Assembly: GCA_026391295.1 (NCBI GenBank)
Contig: JAPLDS010000027.1
Span: forward strand, 82,070-114,114
Reading direction: 5' to 3'
From: Bacteroidia bacterium
Lineage (GTDB): Bacteria > Bacteroidota > Bacteroidia > Bacteroidales > Prolixibacteraceae
Length of the DNA stretch: 32,045 nucleotides
The position numbers were made by a program, and so were the translations under genes. Below are positions 14,301 to 27,955 of this stretch, in pieces. A model generated the notes under the pieces. It searched no databases, was not told the DNA's origin, and was given only the letters and a program-made list of their open reading frames with translations. Position 1 is the stretch's first letter, and each line of letters opens with the position of its first letter.

Positions 14301-15080
14301 CTAAAACCTCTCTCTTGGGGTATAATGGGTGTGCAAGAGGTGATGCGAAACTTCACCCAACGGCTCAGTAAGGAACTCGGAATAGATCTTAAGAATTTCG
14401 GGATTCTGATGTGACTTTCGAAGAGGCATACCCTGATCTTCGGCATAGATCGCCAATGCGCGCTTGCGTCGGATCTCTGGATTGGTCGGGATTGGCTGAC
14501 CACCGCCACCCAGACAGCCACCTGGACAAGCCATGATCTCAATAAAATGATACTGCGATTCACCTGAAACGATCGAATCCATTAAGCTCTTGGCATTGAC
14601 AAGTCCATGAGCAACAGCGCATTTAAGTTCGATACCTTCCAAGAAAGACCAGTCGGGTAATGGGTTTTCAATTAATATCGAAGCCTCACGAACACCTTCC
14701 ATCCCACGAACAGGCATTATATTAAGATTTTCAAAAGGGACTTCGCGACCAGTCACCAGTTCATAGGCCGTACGCAATGCAGCCTCCATCACCCCTCCAG
14801 TGGCGCCAAAAATAACACCTGCCCCGGTTGAAGCACCCATAATTTGATCAAAGGACCGATCGTCAAGTTTTAAAAAATCAATTCCAGCCTGCTTTATCAT
14901 AATCGCCAACTCACGCGTCGTGAGTACATAATCGACATCTCGATAACCACTATCATGCATCTCTGGCCGATTAGCTTCAAATTTTTTGGCCGTACAAGGC
15001 ATAATAGATACCGAAACTATATTCTCTGGATTCAGATTAAAGTGCTTAGCATAATAAGTCTTAACTAAAGCTCCAAACAT
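14301..15080 (-). pseudogene. hydA: [FeFe]-hydrogenase HydA, C-terminal part (after deletion/frameshift)
   Basis: This segment carries the second half of the H-cluster domain: MFGALVKTYYAKHF, the L2 motif IMPCTAKKFEANRPEM, GASTGAGVIFGATGGVMEAALRTA, and the L3 motif MACPGGCLGGGGQP with its cysteine ligands. It ends with RKSHQNPEILKIYSEF. It is out of frame with the N-terminal part. The two join at 15081, where one nucleotide lies between the His of YLDH and the Met of MFGALVK; related enzymes have nine residues there (LSxxKSPQQ-like). The missing piece is thus a net 26 nt. An ATG at 15080 could allow re-initiation giving a 259-residue fragment, but that fragment lacks L1. Confidence 0.9.
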
Positions 15081-16065
15081 TATGGTCGAGATAGTCGGGA
15101 TACATATGCTCGATGTATTTAATCCAAGCTGGAGAGCAAGAGGTAGCCAATGGCAGTTTAACATTAGGATCATGATCTACCAACACTTTTTTAAGTCGCA
15201 TAAGGAGCTCCGAACCCTCCTCCATGATGGTTAGGTCAGCAGAGAAATCTGTATCCATCACCGCATCAAAACCTAAACGTTTTAAGGCAGCAACCATCTT
15301 TCCCGTCACTCGAGTACCTGGTTCGAACCCCAACTCTTCACCAAGTCCGACCCGCACGGCAGGTGCTGTCTGAACAATCACAAACTTATCTTTATTCGCG
15401 AGGGCATCCCACACCTCTTCGATATAATTACGCTCTACCAAAGCACCTGTTGGACAATGATTGATACACTGGCCACAATTGGTGCAGACCACATCGTTCA
15501 TCGGCTTTTCAAAAAAGGTTGCAATCTTCATCCGATCCCCCTTGTAGGCAGCCGTTAAAGCACTTACCCCTTGTATTTCAGCACAGGTTCTCACACATCG
15601 CTGACAGCGAATACATTTGCTATCATCCTTTATCATGGAGGGGGAATAATGATCAATCTGATATTTCCGCAATGGTGCCAGCTGGATAAAATCCTGCGTC
15701 ATTATTTTATAATCGGAAGCCAATTTTTGCAATTCACAATTCCCATTCTTATAACACAACGTACAATCAGCATTGTGCTCGGAAAGGAGTAGCTCAATAA
15801 TTTGTTTTCTAGCATTTCGAACTTTCAACGAATTGGTAAGAATTTCCATACCCTCTTCGCAGGGTGTAGCACAAGCTGCTGAGAGTCGTTTTTGGCCAGC
15901 TATTTCGACCACACAAACTCTGCAATTTCCTGCGACACAAAGATCTTTATGAAAGCATAACGTGGGGATAATTACGCCTGCACAAACCGCAGCATCAACA
16001 ATTGAGCTACCCTCTGCGATCTCAATCTGCTTCTCATTGATGATTATCTTAATCTTGGTTGTCAT
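15061..16065 (-). pseudogene. hydA: [FeFe]-hydrogenase HydA, N-terminal part (ends by frameshift)
   Basis: Catalytic subunit of a multimeric NAD-linked [FeFe]-hydrogenase. Domains in order: a plant-type [2Fe-2S] domain (Cys37, 48, 51, 65), a His/Cys [4Fe-4S] segment (HNADCTLCYKNGNCELQ), a two-[4Fe-4S] ferredoxin (CIRCQRCVRTC and CTNCGQCINHCPTG), then the start of the H-cluster domain with L1 TSCSPAW. True homology ends at YLDH (15082); seven out-of-frame codons follow to the stop at 15061. An intact protein would be about 590 residues, typical of the bifurcating trimeric type. It starts 20 nt after hydB. The lesion removes the segment that holds Ser319 and Ser323 in Clostridium pasteurianum CpI, so the product should be inactive if the deletion is real. 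Confidence 0.92.
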
Positions 16066-16085: not shown

Positions 16086-17270
16086 TTAATAAATCATCTC
16101 TTCTCTGAAATTCTCAACAATAGACGAAAATGAGTTCGCCACCGATTGTCCGAGACCACACTTGGCTGTATATTGCATTGTTTCGGTTAATCGCAATAAT
16201 TTATCAAGATACTGACCGTTCTTTTCACCTCTTTTGACCGCTTTAATCCCATTGAGTAGTTGTTGACAACCCACACGGCAAGGGGTGCACTGACCACAAG
16301 ACTCCTCTCGAAAAAACTCAAGGTAATTATCAAGCACGTTATACATCGATCGGGAACTATTAAAGAGCATCATTGAGCCTCCGGTTGGGAGTGAGATACC
16401 TGTAAGCTTTCCTTGAAATCCAATCGTTGTCTCTGCAAATCGTTTCTGTGGAACTAAAAACCCTGATGCCCCGCCAACTTGGACGGCTTTGGTATCTCCA
16501 TCACCAAAATCATGAACAAAGTCAAGTAAACTCATCCCAAGTTCTAACTCATAGATACCAGGTTTTGGCGTGTCGCCTGAGACAGAGAAAAGCTTAGAGC
16601 CACGCGAATATTGAACGCCTAGGTCGTAAAACCGTTTAGCTCCATATTTAAAAATAGTATACGTATGGGCTAGAGTTTCGACATTGTTAATCACAGTAGG
16701 CTTGCCGAGGTAACCAAACGATGTGGGATAAGGAGGTTTATTTCTAGGCTCGCCGCGCTTCCCCTCCATAGATTCAAACAGAGCAGTCTCTTCACCACAG
16801 ATATAGGCACCCGCGCCCATAAAGAGCTTAATCCGAAAATCAAAGTTAAGTTCTTGACAAGTGGCTTGAAATTCTAGTATGGCTTTGTTCAAGGCAGGCT
16901 GAAGGAAGAAATATTCGCCGCGCAGGTAGATGTAGGCCTGGTGTGATCCAATAACATACCCACAGATAGCCATAGCGGTAAGAACCTTCATCGGGACCTT
17001 TGTCAAGATTTCACGATCTTTAAATGTTCCAGGTTCACCTTCATCGGCATTGCAGATGATATATTTAATCAGATTCAACTCATCAGCCGCCAACTTCCAT
17101 TTAAAACCAGTGGGAAAGCCAGCTCCACCTCTACCTTTAAGTTCTGAGCTGATTAACTCATTTATTAATTCTGCGGGGGGCCGACTGAGGCTTTTCTGCA
17201 AAATATCTTTCCAATCGGACTCGTTTTGAAATATAAAATCAACTCGTTTTAGATCATATCCGGGTGTCAT
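16086..17270 (-). CDS. hydB: NAD-linked hydrogenase subunit HydB (NuoF-like, short form)
   Basis: FMN- and NAD(H)-binding electron-transfer subunit that links HydA to NAD. Motifs match NuoF/HydB: the NADH-binding GRGGAGFPTGFKW near residue 48, the FMN segment CNADEGEPGTFKDR near 73, GAGAYICGEETAL, and the C-terminal [4Fe-4S] site SCGQCTPCRVGC with a later Cys in KCGLGQ. At 394 residues it lacks both the N-terminal thioredoxin-like [2Fe-2S] domain and the C-terminal two-[4Fe-4S] ferredoxin of the ~600-residue Thermotoga-type HydB. The start ATG overlaps hydC by 17 nt and follows an AGGAGG-type ribosome site, unusual here. A respiratory complex I subunit is excluded by the neighbours. Confidence 0.92.
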   Translation of the reverse strand: MTPGYDLKRVDFIFQNESDWKDILQKSLSRPPAELINELISSELKGRGGAGFPTGFKWKLAADELNLIKYIICNADEGEPGTFKDREILTKVPMKVLTAMAICGYVIGSHQAYIYLRGEYFFLQPALNKAILEFQATCQELNFDFRIKLFMGAGAYICGEETALFESMEGKRGEPRNKPPYPTSFGYLGKPTVINNVETLAHTYTIFKYGAKRFYDLGVQYSRGSKLFSVSGDTPKPGIYELELGMSLLDFVHDFGDGDTKAVQVGGASGFLVPQKRFAETTIGFQGKLTGISLPTGGSMMLFNSSRSMYNVLDNYLEFFREESCGQCTPCRVGCQQLLNGIKAVKRGEKNGQYLDKLLRLTETMQYTAKCGLGQSVANSFSSIVENFREEMIY

Positions 17271-17745
17271 TTACTCCTCCTTTCCTATTCAAATAGCCGC
17301 TGAGTATTTCCCTTACTTTTTCAGGGGTAAGGTCGGTATAGACATCAAAATTAATCAGCATAGCAGGTGCCATATGACAAAAGCCTAAGCAATTAGTTTG
17401 AAGCAGGGAGAACATGCCATCAGGTGTGGTCTCACCGACTTTTATTTTCAACATATCCTCAATGGTCATCAAGACTTGATTTTTCCCTTTCATAGAACAG
17501 GTGATGGTCTTGCAGATACGAATCAGGTACTTGCCCATCTTCTTATATTCCAAGAATGAGTAAAAAGTTGCGGTACCATAAACCTCTGCGGCTGGAAGAT
17601 TTAGCGCCCTAGCAATCTCAATCATCGCATATTCAGAAAGGTAATTTTCTTGCTGGACGACCCCTTGTAGGATAGGCAACAGACTGCTCCTATCTCGACC
17701 ATATTGGTCAGTTAGGTTATCGATAAGTTCTAATACAGCAACCAT
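17254..17745 (-). CDS. hydC: NAD-linked hydrogenase subunit HydC (NuoE-like, [2Fe-2S])
   Basis: A 163-residue thioredoxin-like [2Fe-2S] protein. The N-terminal helical part (SLLPILQGVVQQENYLSEYAM) and AAEVYGTATFYSFL are typical of NuoE. The cluster ligands are the C-X4-C in CKTITCSMKG and the C-X3-C in NCLGFCHMAPAM. It works with HydB in electron transfer between NAD(H), ferredoxin and HydA. First gene of hydC-hydB-hydA; its 3' end overlaps hydB by 17 nt, suggesting coupled translation. No hydE, hydF or hydG maturase gene is in the window. Confidence 0.92.
   Translation of the reverse strand: MVAVLELIDNLTDQYGRDRSSLLPILQGVVQQENYLSEYAMIEIARALNLPAAEVYGTATFYSFLEYKKMGKYLIRICKTITCSMKGKNQVLMTIEDMLKIKVGETTPDGMFSLLQTNCLGFCHMAPAMLINFDVYTDLTPEKVREILSGYLNRKGGVNDTRI
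17271..17280 (-). promoter_or_regulatory. Strong Shine-Dalgarno of hydB within hydC
   Basis: On the minus strand, AGGAGGAGTAA directly precedes the hydB ATG. Most genes in the window have A-rich leaders without an SD, so this one stands out and supports the start at 17270 inside the end of hydC. Confidence 0.6.
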
Positions 17746-17930: not shown

Positions 17931-18000
17931 TACCTTGTTTATGGTACTATTTATACCCTTTAATTGGGATTTTAAAATTCACTAAGCAGACGCAATTTTG
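17931..18000 (+). promoter_or_regulatory. thrC control region: tandem ATACC-N8-GGNA dyads plus -7 element
   Basis: The distal box TACCTTGTTTATGGTA (17931-17946) and the proximal box TACCCTTTAATTGGGA (17954-17969) are separated by 7 nt. A near-consensus -7 element CAATTTTG (17993-18000) follows exactly 23 nt after the proximal box, 66 nt before the thrC ATG. The same order and the same 23-nt gap recur upstream of cysJ (27887-27955). If the start site is about 6 nt past the -7 box, the dyads centre near -44 and -67, typical activator positions. The cognate regulator is unknown. Confidence 0.6.
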
Positions 18001-18066
18001 TATCATCACAAAGAGCATCCGAATTCAAGAAATTGAAAACAGGAAAAGACCTTAAAACAATTTAAA

Positions 18067-19290
18067 ATGGCAAATCTAGAGCATCCTCAACAAGACCTTA
18101 AAAGCAAAAATAGCTTTATCTTACATCTGAAATGTTCAGGTTGCGGAACCCTCTATCCGCATGATGCCATTCAGAATTTCTGCCTGAAGCCAGAGTGCCA
18201 AGAGACATTAGTTTCCGAATACAACCTAACACCTGGACAAATCTCAAAAGCTGACTTACAGAATAGGCCCAATAACATGTGGCGTTACAAGGAGTTTCTA
18301 CCGATAAACGACGAAAAAAACATTGTTAGTCTAGGCGAAGGTGGGACTCCCCTATTCAAGGCAAACCGATTAAATAAGAATATTGGCATTGAGGAGGTCT
18401 ATTGGAAAGATGAAGGTGGCAATCCCACCGGATCGTTTAAAGCCAGAGGGATGAGCACAGCGATCTCAAAAGCCAAAGAGTTAGGGATTACAAAAGTTGC
18501 TATTCCAACAGCAGGAAATGCAGGCGTTGCACTGGCAGCCTATGGAACAAGAGCTGGATTAGAGGTACATGTGTTTATGCCAAAGGAGACACCAGACCAG
18601 CATAAACGCGAAGTTAAATATTATGGTGCTCAGCTTACTGAGATAGATGGAAACATTGGCGACTGCGGTAAACTTGTCGCTGAATTATGCGCTAAAGGAG
18701 AATGGTTTAACATGTCGACTCTGAAGGAGCCTTATCGTTTAGAGGGGAAGAAAACCATGGGTTATGAGTTGGCGGAGCAATTAAATTGGGAGTTACCTGA
18801 CGTTATTTTATATCCTACCGGTGGAGGCACTGGACTTATTGGATTCTGGAAAGCCTTTAACGAATTAGAGAGTCTTGGCTGGATTAGATCAAAAAGACCA
18901 CGATTAGTTGCTGTCCAGTCGGAAAATTGCAATGGAATAGTGACTGCTTTTCATCAGCAACTAGTTAAATCGGAGGCTATTGACAGAGGATTTACTATTG
19001 CCAATGGTCTGCGTGTACCAAAATCGTTCGCCGATAAGTTAATCCTGAAGATCCTTTATGAAAATAACGGATATGCCATTAGTGTTTCTGACCGAGAAAT
19101 CAACGATTCATTGCAGGAGGTCGCTCGTTTGGAAGGGATGTTTGTTGCACCTGAAGGGGCTGCATTATGGGCAGCCTTAAAAAGACTTAAAGCTGAAAAC
19201 CGAATTCAATCGCACGAAAAAGTGGTCCTAATCAATACCGGCACAGGCTATAAATACCTTGAAAATATTTTTGTAGGAGAGAATATCTAA
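18067..19290 (+). CDS. thrC: Threonine synthase
   Basis: PLP enzyme converting O-phosphohomoserine to threonine. The 407-residue protein starts with a short zinc-ribbon-like segment (CSGCGTLYPHD ... FCLKPEC). It continues with SLGEGGTPL, the PLP-lysine motif NPTGSFKARG near residue 118, TAGNAGVALAAYG, the PLP-phosphate loop PTGGGTGLIG, and EGAALWAAL near the C terminus. This fits the archaeal/plant-like class of threonine synthases more than the E. coli class. It is a single gene; its TAA overlaps the TAG of the convergent symporter gene. It shares a tandem-dyad promoter layout with the sulfite reductase operon. Confidence 0.93.
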   Translation: MANLEHPQQDLKSKNSFILHLKCSGCGTLYPHDAIQNFCLKPECQETLVSEYNLTPGQISKADLQNRPNNMWRYKEFLPINDEKNIVSLGEGGTPLFKANRLNKNIGIEEVYWKDEGGNPTGSFKARGMSTAISKAKELGITKVAIPTAGNAGVALAAYGTRAGLEVHVFMPKETPDQHKREVKYYGAQLTEIDGNIGDCGKLVAELCAKGEWFNMSTLKEPYRLEGKKTMGYELAEQLNWELPDVILYPTGGGTGLIGFWKAFNELESLGWIRSKRPRLVAVQSENCNGIVTAFHQQLVKSEAIDRGFTIANGLRVPKSFADKLILKILYENNGYAISVSDREINDSLQEVARLEGMFVAPEGAALWAALKRLKAENRIQSHEKVVLINTGTGYKYLENIFVGENI

Positions 19291-21878: not shown

Positions 21879-23675
21879 TTAAGATACCGAGGTGATGAAG
21901 GATTCGCTAAGTTCTAAAAAGCGCTTCTCCGTCTCACGACCTCTGAAAATAAATCGCTTGTCATTAGGCAGTTCACCATAAAGTCGCAAGAAATTAGTCA
22001 CACACGAAGGAGCTGGGAAGACGATGGTCTGCACGTCAGTCAGATCAAGAGGCTTTATATTATCGGGGTATTTATTTTCATAAAATACAGGACGAGTGAC
22101 AGTCCATCCTAAACGAGCAAGGTTCTCTGGAAGGATTGGAAGTCCTAAGTTAGAGCGAGGAATTAGCACATGTCCATTAGGAATACCTTGTGCTTCAATC
22201 GCCTTGATTAATCCTTGTGATGATTCATCTTCGGGCTGCAGATCAGGCACGATGCCATATTTAGTCAACGCTTTAGAGGTTAGATCGCCCATTGAGGCAA
22301 TCTTTAGGTGAGCCAATGAACGACTATCCTTGCCGTAATGTTTTAAAAATTCAAAGAAAAACTGGACGGTATAACGACTGGTAAAAAAGATCCAATCGAA
22401 CTGTTTAAGATTTTTATAGTAGTTTTCAAGTTCAGCATAAGGCTGAATCCGATTCACTTCAATCAAGGGTTGATGAATCACGGTTCCGAGTTTTTGATAT
22501 TTCTCGGTGGTGGTTCCAGTAACAAAAAATACAGGTTTTAAAACTTCCATTTCGCTATTATTGCGCAAAGCTACTACTTTCCCAATCACAATAATGATTG
22601 GTGTTGGATATTTCACCGTATTGGTCGTCAGCTCTTGCAAAGTTGAAAAATATTCTTTCTGATCTGGCAGTGAGATATTATGAACAAGCATCACCGGAGT
22701 ATCGGCACGCTTACCTTGATCGATGGCTTTTTGAGCAATCATCCGAATATTACAGCCGCCCATAAAGCAGACTACCGTATCCGTTTCAGGAATCCGAACC
22801 GAATCGGAATGTCCTGAGATAAAAGCAACCGATGAGGAGATACCTCGATGTGTTAAAGGGATCTGAGTATAAGCAGCTACGGCGATACCAGCAGAAACAC
22901 CAGGAAGAACACTAACCTCCACAAAGTTGCGATGTAAAAATTCCAACTCTTCTCCGCCATGAGCGAAAACCATGGGATCACCACCTTTTAGTCGGACCAC
23001 ACAACGGCCTACTTTGGCTGCATTAAAAAGTAACCGATTGATTTTATCTTGACGGAAACTATGACAATCCTTCCGTTTACCGACATAAAATTTCTCGCCT
23101 CTATATTTAGCAGGGAAACTCTGATCTAATAAGTCGTCATGAAATATCACATCAGCTTTTGCCAATGCTTTATCGCCTCCTATGGTTAAAAGATCAGCAT
23201 TTCCTGGTCCAAAGCCCACCAAGGTCACTTTGCCAAATTTCTGACGACTATCGTATGGGGTAAATAAAGAGACCAATTCCGATTGATCCGCATGGGCCAC
23301 GAGGGCTAAATAATCATCTAATGGATCTCCTTGGAATAGATGCTCACCGAGGTCGTTAATGTCGTTACCCGAAAGATTCGCGGACTTTATTGAACCGTCC
23401 AATAGCGCAACAACTTTTAAATTTTCAGTCAGTGGATAGGGCAACTCAATCGCATTCACCAACGCTAAATCCAGCTTCTTTTGTTGAAGTTCTCGAAATA
23501 GCGTCTCCACGGTATTGGGAAGTGAATTCTTCGATCCCTCCTCCTTTAGCTTTATTTCTAATGGCATCAACAAACTAGCCAAATCAGTAAATTGCGTCAA
23601 CACTTCCTCGATCTTTTGAAGGACCAGCGGACTGCTTTGACTGCTTACTTTTAAGTTATTGTAAAGAATGCTCAT
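21879..23675 (-). CDS. Siroheme fusion: degenerate HemC N-domain + SUMT (CobA/CysG-C) + HemD
   Basis: A 598-residue fusion. Residues 147-385 are a uroporphyrinogen-III C-methyltransferase: TLVGFGPGNADLLT, VRLKGGDPMVFAHGGEELE, LPGVSAGIAVAAYTQIPLTHRG and HNISLP. It makes precorrin-2 from uroporphyrinogen III and SAM. Residues 390-598 resemble uroporphyrinogen-III synthase (FDWIFFTSRYTVQFF, SQGLIKAI, VLIPRSNLGLPILPENLARLGW). Residues 8-105 look like the first lobe of porphobilinogen deaminase (LKVSSQSSPLVLQ for IRIGTRxSPLALxQ; LFRELQQKKLDLALVNAIELP for the HSxKDVP region), but the conserved Arg and catalytic Asp are missing and the rest of the enzyme is absent. It follows the precorrin-2 dehydrogenase gene by 33 nt; last gene of the cys operon. 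Confidence 0.9.
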   Translation of the reverse strand: MSILYNNLKVSSQSSPLVLQKIEEVLTQFTDLASLLMPLEIKLKEEGSKNSLPNTVETLFRELQQKKLDLALVNAIELPYPLTENLKVVALLDGSIKSANLSGNDINDLGEHLFQGDPLDDYLALVAHADQSELVSLFTPYDSRQKFGKVTLVGFGPGNADLLTIGGDKALAKADVIFHDDLLDQSFPAKYRGEKFYVGKRKDCHSFRQDKINRLLFNAAKVGRCVVRLKGGDPMVFAHGGEELEFLHRNFVEVSVLPGVSAGIAVAAYTQIPLTHRGISSSVAFISGHSDSVRIPETDTVVCFMGGCNIRMIAQKAIDQGKRADTPVMLVHNISLPDQKEYFSTLQELTTNTVKYPTPIIIVIGKVVALRNNSEMEVLKPVFFVTGTTTEKYQKLGTVIHQPLIEVNRIQPYAELENYYKNLKQFDWIFFTSRYTVQFFFEFLKHYGKDSRSLAHLKIASMGDLTSKALTKYGIVPDLQPEDESSQGLIKAIEAQGIPNGHVLIPRSNLGLPILPENLARLGWTVTRPVFYENKYPDNIKPLDLTDVQTIVFPAPSCVTNFLRLYGELPNDKRFIFRGRETEKRFLELSESFITSVS

Positions 23676-23708: not shown

Positions 23709-24179
23709 CTAGATAATGATCCGTCCGTCTTGAACAAGTGTAGAGATCTGATTTCGGATAGCTACAGCTTGATAAGCATCTCGACCGTTAGTTCCAACGG
23801 AGATGGTCACATGACCTTCGTTATGAATGGCAGGTGAAACAAAATCGCATAAAAATGGAGAATCACAAACACTGGTCAGGATATTTAATTCCTCTGCATC
23901 GGCTTTTATCTGCGCATTAAGCTCGTGGTTTCCGGTGCAGACATAGACTAAAAAGAACCCTTCAAGGTCACTTTTATCATACTCCTTCGTGACAAAATTA
24001 AACGGCAAAGCTTTAATCTCATCGGTAAACTCAGGAGCCACAACGGTAACTTGTTCGTGTACAATTCGCGCCATGATAACCCCTTTGTGCGTTGCTACTT
24101 TTCCACCCCCAACAAGTAAGATTTTCTTATTGGTTACGTTAATCGAGATGGGCAAAAATTGTAAATCTTCTCTTTTCAT
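23709..24179 (-). CDS. Precorrin-2 dehydrogenase / sirohydrochlorin ferrochelatase (CysG N-domain, Met8-like)
   Basis: Oxidises precorrin-2 to sirohydrochlorin with NAD and may insert iron to give siroheme. The 156-residue protein opens with FLPISINVTNKKILLVGGGKVATHKG, the Rossmann dinucleotide site, and contains the CDSPFLCDFVSPAIHNEGHVTISVGTNG core typical of CysG-N/SirC/Met8. It lacks the C-terminal dimerisation extension of full CysG-N (~200 residues), so it is closer to the short SirC-like form and chelatase activity is uncertain. It lies 30 nt after cysI; it ends in TAG. It supplies the cofactor of the sulfite reductase encoded upstream in the same operon. Confidence 0.92.
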   Translation of the reverse strand: MKREDLQFLPISINVTNKKILLVGGGKVATHKGVIMARIVHEQVTVVAPEFTDEIKALPFNFVTKEYDKSDLEGFFLVYVCTGNHELNAQIKADAEELNILTSVCDSPFLCDFVSPAIHNEGHVTISVGTNGRDAYQAVAIRNQISTLVQDGRIII

Positions 24180-24209: not shown

Positions 24210-25913
24210 TTAATTATGAAACTCTTTGCCAGCTAATGTGGCTTTGATATAACCCTTACGGATCACAAAATCACCAAATCGCTCATCTGCTATCCGATTT
24301 TTTGCATAGTCTTCTAGAAGGGGAGCTAAAGCCTCAAGGATCTGCTCCTCATTAACCATCTCCTTATATAGTTTATTCAAACGATCACCCACAAAACTGG
24401 CGCCCAGATAGAGGTTATAAACCCCTGGTGCCCGACCTACTAGGCCAATCTCAGCTAGGAAAGGTCTTCCGCAGCCATTTGGACAGCCTGTCATTCGGAT
24501 ACTAATAGGTGTTTGAAGCAAGTCGTTTGCCTCTAAAAGCTGATCTATCTTACTAACTAATGTTGGCAGATAACGTTCCGCTTCCGCAAAAGCTAATCCA
24601 CAATAAGGCAAAGCGGCACAAGCAATAGAATTTTGGCGTAGCAGCGATATTTTTGCGGTGTCGATGATCTTATATTTCTTTAAGATAGCCTCAACCTTAG
24701 ACTTCTCACCCTCTTCTACCTGAGCAATCACAACATTCTGATTACCAGTAAGAATAAAAGTACCTTTATGGATTGTTGCGATTTCGCGAATAGCCGTCTT
24801 GGCTAAATAGCCATTTCGATCAATTAGTTTTCCACCCTCCACAAATACGGTATAATGCCATAGGCCATCTGCGCTCTTTAACCAACCATATTTATCGCCC
24901 ATCGTCTCGAAGGCATAATCTTTATTTGGGGTCAGAACGATCCCTTTTGTCCGCTTGATCTCCGCATAAAAGAATTCTAATCCTAAACGATCGACGGTAT
25001 ATTTCAACCGCGCATTTTTACGTTCAGAGCGATTACCATGATCTCGTTGGAAGATCAATATAGCTTCAGAAACTGCTTCGATTTGCTCTTTTGGAAAATA
25101 ACCAACCACATCGGCTACCCGAGGATAAGTCTCGTTATTTCCAAACGTATAAGCCATGCCACCACCAATGGTTACATTGTATCCAGTTAATTTTCCGTTC
25201 TCCACGATGGCAATAAACCCAAGGTCGTTTGACAACACATCGGTATCGTTACGAGGTGGTATAGCAATAGCTGTTTTAAACTTACGCGGCATATAAAGCT
25301 TGCCATACAAAGGTTCTTCTTCCTTCTCGCCACCCTCAACCAGTTTACCATCCAACCAAATTTCGTGATAGGCATTCGTAGAAGGTGTTAGATGGGCCGA
25401 AATTTTTCTTGCATCTTCAGCTACTTCAGCATGCACAGGCGATTCAAAAGGGTTGGCCGAGCACATCACGTTACGATTTACGTCACCACATGCGGCAATC
25501 GTATCCAATAAGGAGTCGTTAATCTCTTTGATGGTCCGTTTCAGATTGCGTTTTAATACGCCATGAAACTGAAATGCCTGACGGGTGGTAAGCTTCAAGG
25601 TCTTATCGCCGTATTGCTCAGAAAGATCATCCATAGCTAACCATTGTGCGGCCGTTGTAACACCTGCAGGGACACGGACACGAATTAAAAAGGAATAAAG
25701 AGGTTCAAGCTTTTGCTTTTTACGCTCATCATCCAAGTCGCGATCCTGCTGTTGGTAGGTCCCATGAAATTTAATCAGCACTTGATCAACGGAACGCATC
25801 CCACCGGTAAGTGGATCGTTTAAACTTTCTGTGATTGTTCCCCTTAGATAGGCACTCTCGTCCTTAATTTTCTCTATCGGCGACGGTGCTGGAGTCTCTT
25901 TCTTATCAGCCAT
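24210..25913 (-). CDS. cysI: Sulfite reductase hemoprotein subunit
   Basis: Six-electron reduction of sulfite to sulfide at a coupled siroheme-[4Fe-4S] centre. At 567 residues it is close to E. coli CysI (570). The cluster ligands are Cys432 and Cys438 (CAALPYC) and Cys477 and Cys481 (TGCPNGC). KLTTRQAFQFHGVLK near residue 105, GDVNRNVMCSANP and the C-terminal NRIADERFGDFVIRKGYI are also typical of the assimilatory NADPH-type hemoprotein. It follows cysJ by 49 nt and precedes the siroheme genes. It looks intact. Confidence 0.96.
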   Translation of the reverse strand: MADKKETPAPSPIEKIKDESAYLRGTITESLNDPLTGGMRSVDQVLIKFHGTYQQQDRDLDDERKKQKLEPLYSFLIRVRVPAGVTTAAQWLAMDDLSEQYGDKTLKLTTRQAFQFHGVLKRNLKRTIKEINDSLLDTIAACGDVNRNVMCSANPFESPVHAEVAEDARKISAHLTPSTNAYHEIWLDGKLVEGGEKEEEPLYGKLYMPRKFKTAIAIPPRNDTDVLSNDLGFIAIVENGKLTGYNVTIGGGMAYTFGNNETYPRVADVVGYFPKEQIEAVSEAILIFQRDHGNRSERKNARLKYTVDRLGLEFFYAEIKRTKGIVLTPNKDYAFETMGDKYGWLKSADGLWHYTVFVEGGKLIDRNGYLAKTAIREIATIHKGTFILTGNQNVVIAQVEEGEKSKVEAILKKYKIIDTAKISLLRQNSIACAALPYCGLAFAEAERYLPTLVSKIDQLLEANDLLQTPISIRMTGCPNGCGRPFLAEIGLVGRAPGVYNLYLGASFVGDRLNKLYKEMVNEEQILEALAPLLEDYAKNRIADERFGDFVIRKGYIKATLAGKEFHN

Positions 25914-25962: not shown

Positions 25963-26742
25963 TTAATAAACATCCAACTGCAAACGTTTCTCTCTCTGCA
26001 GCTTGGTAATATATTCTTCCGCTTTTTCTCTGTTTAGGGAGCCCTCTTTTTCAATGATTTTCAGCAAGGCCTTTTGAACATCTCCAGCCATATTATTCAT
26101 ATCGCCACAGATATAGAAATGTGCACCCTCCTCTAACCATTTAAATAACTCAGCAGAATTTTCAATCAGACGGTGCTGCACATACTCTTTCTTCTCGCCA
26201 TCGCGCGAAAAAGCCACATTCATCTTCGACAAGGCACCCGACTTTAAGAAGTTATGCCATTCGGCTTGGTATAAAAACTCAGTCTCAAAATTCCGATTAC
26301 CAAAGAAGAGCCAGCTCTTACCTCGTTTTTCTGACAGTTCACGGTGTTGAATAAATGCGCGATAAGGTGCAATCCCAGTCCCTGCTCCGATCATCACAAT
26401 CGGAGTTTCTTCATTTTGCGGCAATCTAAAATTTGGATTTGACTCAATAAAAATGGGCACATGTTCCTCATCTAAAGCTATTTCTGATAGATAATTTGAG
26501 CAAGTACCTCTTTTTGATCGGCCACTCTTCTCATAGTTAACAACACTTACTGTCAAGTGAAGCTCACCTGGACAAGCAGCTGGGCTAGAAGAGATCGAGT
26601 ACGAACGAGGCTGAATTGGACGCAATAATTTAACCAGCTCAGCAGCGCTGATCTTGGTAGGATTTTCGTGGAATAGATCTACGACATCACGGCCATACAG
26701 GTAATCCTTAAATTTTGCTGGATCATCGATTTGCTTTTGAAG
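25963..26742 (-). pseudogene. cysJ: Sulfite reductase flavoprotein CysJ, C-terminal part (after in-frame TAG)
   Basis: Continues cysJ in the same frame straight after the TAG at 26743-26745. It begins LQKQIDDPAKFKDYLYGRDVV and holds the FAD-binding RPIQPRSYSISSSP and KRGTCSNYLSE, the NADPH-binding GAGTGIAPYRAFIQHR, the FGNRNFETEFLYQAEW segment, YICGDMNNMAGDV and the C-terminal LQLDVY. No ATG or SD is visible near its beginning (the first possible alternative start is a TTG at 26625, which would cut into the FAD domain), so it is probably not translated separately. Apart from the stop codon the coding sequence appears undamaged. Confidence 0.9.
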
Positions 26743-27759
26743 CTATGCGTTAGGGGCAAGTTCTAAAAATCGTTTAACCACATCTGTTGTGATCTTTGAT
26801 AACTCTAAATCACGACGAAGAGCTGAATACAACGTTTTGTTAATACCGTTGACAGTCACTTCTTCTTGAGCATCTAAGCCAGTAGCCTGCAAGACCTCTT
26901 CGATAATTTTCTTTGTATTTAGGGGAATGATAGCCGCTGAATCGCCTGGCTCATAAGAGAGTCCTGCATCATCAGTGGCTAATTCAAGATGTATCGTTTG
27001 ACGTTCATCAGCCTTTCCATGCAAGCTAACGCGATCAAAAATTGGGGCTTTAAATGGATTCTTTTTCGAATATTTCACCACTTCAGAACCAATTCCTGCT
27101 GAGACACTCGACTGAGTACCAACAGCATTTGCTGAAGTGCCAAGTTTCTCTGCAAACACAGCCAAAGTCGAATTGAACCACACTTCGGCAGGCTCTTCAA
27201 AATCTAAGTCACAAGTTAAGATTGGAGCGATTCTGTTAGCTCCTAGCTTTTCAAGTTGCTCATCAAAATCTTTTCCGGTCTTACAAAATTGGAAATAGCT
27301 CGAGTCGCCTAAGGCCAATACCGCAAAATTTGTTGTGGCAAGCTTAGGAGCCCGTTTACCATAAATATATTCGTGTAGCTCTTGCGCTGAGAATGGAGGA
27401 ACACCATCGCCATGAGTAGAGACGATTACCAAGACATTTTTCTCTGTCTGAAGATCGCGAATTTTAAACGTCTCCATATTCTTAAGAACCGCTTTAAGAC
27501 CTCTTTCTTCGGCCAGACGGAGTGCTTTTTTCGCTAATCCTTCGCCATTACCAGTGCGCGATCCATACAAAATAGTCAATGAATCTTGTGAACTTGCAGC
27601 AGCAGACACTGGCTGAGCCAATGCGTTGCCACCCTGCTGTGCGCCTAGTCCAGCTAGATAACCGGATACCCAAAGTTGTTGTTCTTTAGATAATAAACTC
27701 GTTAACTTCGTAAGCTGTTCGAGTTGTTCTGCCGATAAAAGTCCAGATATAATGCTCAT
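26743..27759 (-). pseudogene. cysJ: Sulfite reductase flavoprotein CysJ, N-terminal part (ends at in-frame TAG)
   Basis: NADPH-dependent flavoprotein that feeds electrons to CysI. This part holds the flavodoxin FMN domain (ILYGSRTGNGEGLAKKAL, STHGDGVPPFSAQELHEYI, LALGDSSYFQFCKTGKDFDEQL) and the connecting/FAD subdomain up to FLELAPNA, 338 residues, then TAG. Reading through the TAG would give 598 residues, one less than E. coli CysJ, so the stop is a point lesion and not an altered gene end. I take the ATG at 27759 (MSIISGLLSAEQ) as the start; a TTG 12 nt upstream is the alternative. First gene of the cys/siroheme operon. Confidence 0.9.
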
Positions 27760-27847
27760 CGTTAATTGCAATTAAATTGATAATCGCTAGTAGATTTTCT
27801 GGATCAGAGTTTTTAAAATTCGGGGAGCAAAACATAATTCTGTTCCA

Positions 27848-27855: not shown

Positions 27856-27886
27856 AACGTCAGATTCTTTGACTACTAACTATTGA

Positions 27887-27955
27887 CAAAATTAAAACAA
27901 CAACAAGTGACGCGCCATACCTTTAATTTGGCATTTTAATACCTACTTTATGGTA
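27887..27955 (-). promoter_or_regulatory. cysJ control region: tandem ATACC-N8-GGNA dyads plus -7 element
   Basis: The distal dyad TACCTACTTTATGGTA (27940-27955, extended to ATACC...GGTAT) and the proximal dyad TACCTTTAATTTGGCA (27918-27933) are 6 nt apart. Reading leftward, the -7 element TAATTTTG (27894-27887) follows 23 nt after the proximal dyad, the same gap as upstream of thrC. A leader of about 120 nt precedes cysJ. The layout suits an activator binding just upstream of the -33 region. The remainder of the 27760-28000 intergenic stretch shows no gene. Confidence 0.6.

Follow-up and report, generated by a model that had tools for sequence, protein, structure and literature searches.

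Results

Genes and sites in the window

The stretch of DNA analysed here, hereafter the window, comprises 32,045 nt of a contig from a member of the Prolixibacteraceae (Bacteroidales), and two of its genes, cysJ and a threonine-synthase-like gene (thrC-like), are each preceded by a pair of short dyads. The features on which the analysis rests are as follows, in window coordinates.

17254..17745, minus strand: NuoE-like subunit of an [FeFe]-hydrogenase operon, divergent from the thrC-like gene and sharing its upstream region
17931..17946, plus strand: distal (strong) box of the thrC-like site, TACCTTGTTTATGGTA, centre about -66.5; same letters in the genomes G006 and G016
17954..17969, plus strand: proximal (weak) box of the thrC-like site, TACCCTTTAATTGGGA, centre about -43.5
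17993..18000, plus strand: -7 element of the thrC-like promoter, CAATTTTG, predicted start near 18005
18067..19290, plus strand: threonine-synthase-like PLP enzyme (PRK08197 type), additional to the canonical ThrC, which is encoded at another locus
21879..23675, minus strand: tetrapyrrole methylase/HemD fusion, presumed from its domains to act in sirohaem synthesis, co-directional with cysJ
23709..24179, minus strand: NAD_binding_7 protein, likewise presumed from its domain to act in sirohaem synthesis, co-directional with cysJ
24210..25913, minus strand: sulfite reductase haemoprotein (NIR_SIR), behind cysJ and co-directional with it
25963..26625, minus strand: cysJ part 2, in a different frame from part 1
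26743..27771, minus strand: cysJ part 1, sulfite reductase flavoprotein; the frame is broken and resumes at 25963-26625
27887..27894, minus strand: -7 element of the cysJ promoter, TAATTTTG, predicted start near 27882
27918..27933, minus strand: proximal (weak) box of the cysJ site, TGCCAAATTAAAGGTA (forward-strand reading TACCTTTAATTTGGCA), centre about -43.5
27940..27955, minus strand: distal (strong) box of the cysJ site, TACCATAAAGTAGGTA (forward-strand reading TACCTACTTTATGGTA), centre about -65.5

Both sites are laid out alike, with a strong box TACC-N8-GGTA, 6-7 nt, a weaker box, exactly 23 nt and the element [TC]AnnTTTG. An earlier note on this DNA had described four 16-bp dyads in two pairs, flanked by A on the 5' side of all four and by T on the 3' side of three, with the better box distal and the weaker one proximal, with centres 22 and 23 bp apart, and with the proximal box ending 23 nt before a near-identical -7 element. 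This description held throughout: the dyads lie at exactly the positions claimed, the flanks are present at 4/4 and 3/4 boxes, the order is the same at both sites, the centres are 22 bp apart at cysJ and 23 bp at the thrC-like gene, and 23 nt separate the proximal box from both TAATTTTG and CAATTTTG. The claim that such agreement is unlikely by chance was borne out by shuffling as well as by recurrence in related genomes far above reversed-pattern controls. The pattern ATACC-N8-GGNA matches the window five times against 0.65 expected, a count reached by none of 100 shuffles, and the complete layout, present twice, appeared in 0 of 1000 dinucleotide shuffles (box pairs without the -7 element, 1 of 1000). 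As the layout pattern was derived from the window observation itself, the fair tests are those on other genomes, and these therefore carry more weight than the window shuffles.

A SAM or other known riboswitch in the leader was dropped from consideration because no Rfam family matched the window at gathering score. The cysJ gene (25963-27771, minus strand), split between two frames here, forms a single open frame of 602 aa in G006 and G016, and either an assembly error or a genuine break would account for the difference. The large subunit of the [FeFe]-hydrogenase (14301-16065, minus strand) is also read in two frames, 14301-15173 and 15061-16065.

Recurrence in related genomes

Single boxes with up to one mismatch were not in excess in the own genome (110 places versus 102 for the reversed pattern), and pairs alone were therefore used for scanning. 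The whole genome (2.93 Mb, 81 contigs) contains three box pairs and the reversed control none. The third pair (C44:344) lies upstream of a ThiS-family gene and a Cys/Met PLP enzyme, named metY here, and has the variant -7 element CATTTTCG. The cysK promoter carries a box pair too, with an 8-nt gap and the element GATATTTG, and a weaker variant of the site (23 bits) precedes a PBP_like_2 gene, so that the members found in this genome are cysJ, thrC-like, thiS-metY, cysK and the PBP_like_2 gene. The variant site (own form TACCTATTTAGGGTTAGATAATATACATAATTCGAGGTATTG; L262 2491, plus strand) is repeated across the genus, in G006, G016, G002, G004, G009, G011, G013 and G014, and where its surroundings were read it stands upstream of PBP_like_2 genes (own genome, G016) or of Porin_O_P-like genes (G011, G004); it perhaps represents a weaker or differently tuned class of site.

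Across the 18 genomes of the genus, allowing up to two mismatches, the gap-7 pattern was found at 65 places versus 4 for the control and the gap-6 pattern at 19 versus 3, counts in which part of the dyads are scored on both strands and some weak places resemble noise. The full pattern, run over 393 genomes of the order, returned 45 places in 23 genomes versus 6 places for its reversal. At 19 of the 30 order loci fetched, the downstream gene was cysK, metY or a related Cys/Met enzyme, thrC-like, cysJ, sulfite reductase or a sirohaem gene, as judged by eye from translations, with 15 target-site or neighbour proteins checked against Pfam; TonB receptors, binding proteins and a serine hydrolase were among the other downstream genes, and five of the 30 loci, from four genomes (G205, G282, G163, G311), look like noise. 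Domains recognized in selected target proteins also included PAPS_reduct (cysD-like), NIR_SIR, Porin_O_P, PBP_like_2, OsmC, ThiF and MnmA-type domains. The scan of the genome and its relatives, which the earlier note had suggested, thus places most of the pairs upstream of genes for sulfur metabolism (cysK, metY, cysJ, cysD-like, sulfite reductase, sirohaem).

Conservation at cysJ was followed in 61 genomes, of which 20 had a match, at 25 loci. All 12 same-genus genomes that carry cysJ, the own genome included, have the box pair upstream of it, with protein identities as low as 55%, and so does G038, which belongs to another family; G008 and G017 carry CAATATTG at the 23-nt position in place of the usual TTTG-ending form. 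The pair is absent at the remaining 12 cysJ loci, which come from seven same-family genomes. Five of these seven, all but G031 and G032, were included in the regulator search described below: in G019, G023, G025 and G026 the best regulator match does not reach the tail, ending between residues 210 and 214 of 221, and in G034 the regulator is present, yet the fetched cysJ locus is without the pair.

The thrC-like gene is named threonine synthase by NCBIfam, above the cut-off, and is rare. With E 1e-60 as the cut-off, orthologues were found in 2 of the 393 order genomes (the own genome and G100) and, within the genus, in G006 and G016, and in all four genomes the box pair with its -7 element lies upstream. 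The G100 copy, 72% identical to the window gene, adjoins cysK. A canonical ThrC with a Thr_synth_N domain was found in 11 of 12 genomes tested, including the own genome (contig C35), and was rejected as a regulon target since none of the 11 loci has a box pair. The window gene is either an extra threonine synthase or, at a guess, a relative of that enzyme which has come to serve sulfur metabolism. Between the thrC-like gene of G100 and an outer-membrane receptor gene divergent from it lie three box pairs (L291 2770-3046, the same as L274), of which two have a box in common, and this triple site may control both directions.

These results bear on the proposal of the earlier note that one regulator joins sulfide production with the partition of phosphohomoserine between threonine and methionine. 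The shared site and the link to sulfur stood, and the phosphohomoserine part is weakly supported, and not in the form put forward there, given that the regulon extends beyond sulfite reduction to cysK, metY, cysD-like genes and transport, and that the window thrC is an extra gene beside a canonical one that has no box pair.

Spacing to the promoter

The distance between box pair and promoter was assessed in 51 loci fetched by protein (cysJ or regulator), using box matrices built from promoter-pattern hits; spacing played no part in choosing the pairs. These loci contain 79 distinct pairs, against 0 in reversed sequence, and the distance to NANNTTTG is exactly 23 nt for 43 of the 79 and some other value within 0-51 nt for 5, the remainder without the element being partly the same dyads read on the opposite strand. 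This count supersedes an earlier one (76 versus 11), whose bias arose from the use of the spacing in the pattern by which many of its loci had been retrieved.

The TAnnTTTG element sits at -12 to -5 according to PMC9723704, and on that basis the proximal box is centred at -43.5 and the distal box at -65.5, -66.5 or -67.5 for gaps of 6, 7 and 8 nt, respectively. A centre near -42 at a constant distance from the promoter element is a feature of class II activation, and it is matched by the proximal box. The base that follows the proximal-box T, where a -33 element would fall, is T in 80% and G in 16% of 76 sites. The earlier note had placed the boxes at about -44 and -67, positions suited to an activator; the centres at about -43.5 and -65.5/-66.5 agree with this and suggest that the factor most likely activates rather than represses transcription.

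The heptamer recognized by the nitrate regulator NarL has the consensus TACYYMT, from which the heptamer found here, TACC[AT][TA]A, departs, positions 5 and 7 of the distal box being mostly A (62% and 79% of 76 sites). According to PMC9314961, a NarL site is built from a pair of 7-base elements with 2 bp between them, and a single such site, at -44.5 or at -66.5, supports activation by NarL; the dyads of the window and their conserved counterparts (TACC-N8-GGTA, 16 bp) fit this inverted 7-2-7 geometry as it is given there. Because the heptamer differs from the consensus, the dyads are regarded as having the same geometry as a NarL site and are not classed as NarL sites.

A candidate regulator

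On contig C43 of the own genome, a gene for a NarL-type response regulator lies one gene, a GNAT acetyltransferase, away from the cysK with a box pair. Pfam recognizes in it both a receiver (Response_reg, E 8e-11) and a C-terminal GerE domain (E 5e-18) of the NarL/FixJ (LuxR-type) family. The earlier note knew of no named Bacteroidota factor with this site, and the missing factor is most likely this regulator. In a search of 54 chosen genomes the match extends to the last residue in all 19 site-bearing genomes included, the four site-bearing genomes earlier judged noise having been omitted, and the gene can be very close to a site, with distances of about 10 nt (G281, G042), 63 nt (G425) and 121 nt (G109).

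A profile built from 14 relatives was run over the 393 order genomes, and the family was counted by hand from the result table. It comprises 47 genomes (E <= 3e-52, aligned to position 217 or 218 of 218), and paralogues score E 6e-48 and weaker, with alignments mostly ending near 212. The strict site occurs in 19 of the 47 genomes with the regulator versus 4 of the 346 without it (Fisher 4e-16), a comparison made, among transcription-factor families, for the response-regulator family only and with a profile whose scores favour site-bearing genomes, as it was partly trained on them. The four site-bearing genomes without the regulator are those that had been set aside as noise before the profile search. 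In 28 of the 47 regulator-bearing genomes the strict site is missing.

In a collection of named genomes 559 relatives were matched, and the best 80 of them come from, among others, Alkalitalea, Natronoflexus, Bacteroides, Prevotella, Segatella, Paludibacter, Dysgonomonas and Chlorobiaceae. A site matrix trained on 26 sites, picked by hand from the 45 order places, gave 36 hits at the loci of these 80, some of them on both strands, and none in reversed sequence. The regulator gene itself is preceded by a site in L152 and L196, and in Bacteroides fragilis (L207) a site lies upstream of metY, with mnmA and the regulator adjoining. The partners of the regulator thus vary among distant lineages (cysK, metY, mnmA). 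In Chlorobiaceae, at 6 of 8 loci (L141-L144, L147, L148), the pair follows the regulator at a distance of a few nt and precedes cysK; TTTG is correctly placed in only one of these six sites (L143).

The C-terminal tail of the regulator was first defined as EYxI (69 of 110 loci) and widened to [DE][YF]xI (95 of 110) after the tails had been inspected. Within the locus DNA examined, a full site accompanies 27 of the 95 loci with this tail, the Chlorobiaceae loci failing this stricter test, and a site-like hit lies near 2 of the 15 relatives that lack the tail (L163, L212), one of the 15 (L145) being cut by a contig end. The receiver pocket of the 69 EYxI relatives retains Asp59 (69/69), Lys109 (68/69), Thr/Ser87 (63/69) and the first acid of the acid pair (66/69), whereas a non-acid takes the place of the second acid in each of the 68 relatives listed. 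No kinase domain was found among the 10 neighbour proteins scanned, which come from five loci.

Discussion

We consider it highly probable that the paired boxes form the tandem site of an orphan NarL/LuxR-type response regulator that activates a sulfur-assimilation regulon. This proposal sets out from features observed directly in the genomes, namely the sequence of the site, its conservation, its fixed layout and register, the genes downstream, the co-occurrence with the regulator and the nearness of the regulator gene; binding, activation and the signal, a need for reduced sulfur, we infer. Counting against the proposal are the 28 regulator-bearing genomes in which the strict site is missing, the departure of the heptamer from the NarL consensus, the imperfect -7 elements in Chlorobiaceae, in G008 and G017 and at thiS-metY, the cysJ locus of G034, and the hits near the tail-less relatives L163 and L212. 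The regulator, with its GerE DNA-binding domain, atypical receiver and [DE][YF]xI tail, would bind as one dimer per 16-bp dyad. The dimer at -43.5 would adjoin the -33 region and contact RNA polymerase from a class II position, and the dimer at -65.5/-66.5, about two helical turns upstream, would assist. When reduced sulfur is needed, the regulator would in this way switch on sulfate activation, sulfite reductase with sirohaem synthesis, cysK, metY and uptake genes and, here, the threonine-synthase-like enzyme.

It could be argued that the boxes are real and conserved but bound by another factor (LysR, Rrf2/CymR-like or Crp/Fnr-like), the response regulator only travelling with cysK and metY. 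Regulon genes cluster, so that a gene near cysK would often be near a site anyway, and LysR activators, too, pair a strong site near -65 with a weak one near -42. We nevertheless regard this as unlikely, as the regulator co-occurs with the site (19/47 versus 4/346), changes its partners from lineage to lineage and is, in L152 and L196, itself encoded behind a site. The LysR-type activators CysB and CysL recognize an odd dyad, T-N11-A, which is not matched by the even 16-bp dyads of the window, and the latter agree with the NarL geometry. The LysR, Crp/Fnr and Rrf2 readings were set aside on dyad geometry and on the place of the regulator gene.

An operator at which a repressor would shut off the promoter in the presence of ample sulfur appears just as improbable. 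The proximal box extends to about -36 and could obstruct polymerase; occlusion, however, needs no fixed 23-nt register, in which 43 of the 48 NANNTTTG elements within 0-51 nt of the 79 pairs are found, and the NarL precedents at such positions are activators (PMC9314961).

Considerably less probable still is that the boxes at 17931-17969 act on the divergent [FeFe]-hydrogenase operon, on which the earlier note is silent, instead of on the thrC-like gene. The site does lie between two divergent genes, and dyads have no direction of their own. However, a -7 element in the 23-nt register is present on the thrC-like side only, the expected place on the hydrogenase side being occupied by TAGTGCTG, and in G006 the site is unchanged before the thrC-like gene with no hydrogenase frame within 1.5 kb upstream. 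Given this register and the arrangement in G006, the site most likely belongs to the thrC-like gene; G100, too, has a site upstream of the same gene in a different setting. Finally, a chance resemblance of the two upstream regions, for which one might cite that single boxes are no commoner than the reversed pattern (110 versus 102), is already contradicted by conservation across families, by counts well over controls and by the sulfur genes downstream, and can be given practically no weight.

Among characterized regulators, the Escherichia coli nitrate regulator NarL, which works with sensor kinases, and VraR, known for its role in cell-wall stress, offer the closest comparisons. The proposed regulator resembles NarL in carrying a GerE domain on a receiver, in the 16-bp dyad and in the activating positions, given as -44.5 and -66.5 in PMC9314961. 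Unlike NarL, it has no kinase among the neighbours scanned, the second acid of its receiver pocket is replaced, its targets are sulfur genes and its sites come as two in tandem. VraR (5hev, 4gvp) is the closest solved sequence, matching across almost the full length (E 7e-34) with NarL lower in the list; the VraR match, however, ends at profile position 211 of 218, before the [DE][YF]xI tail.

Sulfur assimilation is known to be regulated by CysB and CysL of the LysR family and by CymR of the Rrf2 family, which control the same pathway, i.e. cysJI, cysK, sulfate uptake and methionine synthesis. These proteins differ from the candidate in belonging to unrelated families with unrelated DNA sites. 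In the open-access literature we found neither a description of the regulator or its regulon nor a named regulator of sulfur assimilation for Bacteroidota. If our proposal is true, the regulator would represent an independent solution to sulfur control in Bacteroidota and Chlorobiota.

We lean, with some reservation, towards a bolder view, in which the protein is an undescribed master activator of sulfur assimilation, characterized by a remodelled receiver, a diagnostic tail and rigid tandem dyads, and in which the thrC-like gene encodes a sulfur enzyme. Such an activator would be patchy yet widespread, being present in 47 of 393 order genomes and ranging from Chlorobiaceae, with metY, cysK and a family 2A encapsulin for neighbours, as far as Bacteroides and Prevotella, and the rare thrC-like enzyme would be, for example, an O-phosphohomoserine or O-phosphoserine sulfhydrylase and not a housekeeping threonine synthase.

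The gut and sediments harbour abundant Bacteroidota, whose metabolism of cysteine and sulfide has effects on host and community. What is gained here is a specific candidate protein, a base-level model of its site with a fixed promoter spacing, and a list of targets that can be tested in tractable Bacteroides species. The fixed register to the unusual Bacteroidota promoter could, moreover, provide a handle on the contact between activator and polymerase.

One Chlorobiaceae locus (L141 4354-10280) presents, in order, metY, the regulator, a site, cysK and a hexapeptide transferase, followed by a family 2A encapsulin that bears a cNMP domain, and the encapsulin compartment may be a further structure under the control of the sulfur regulator.
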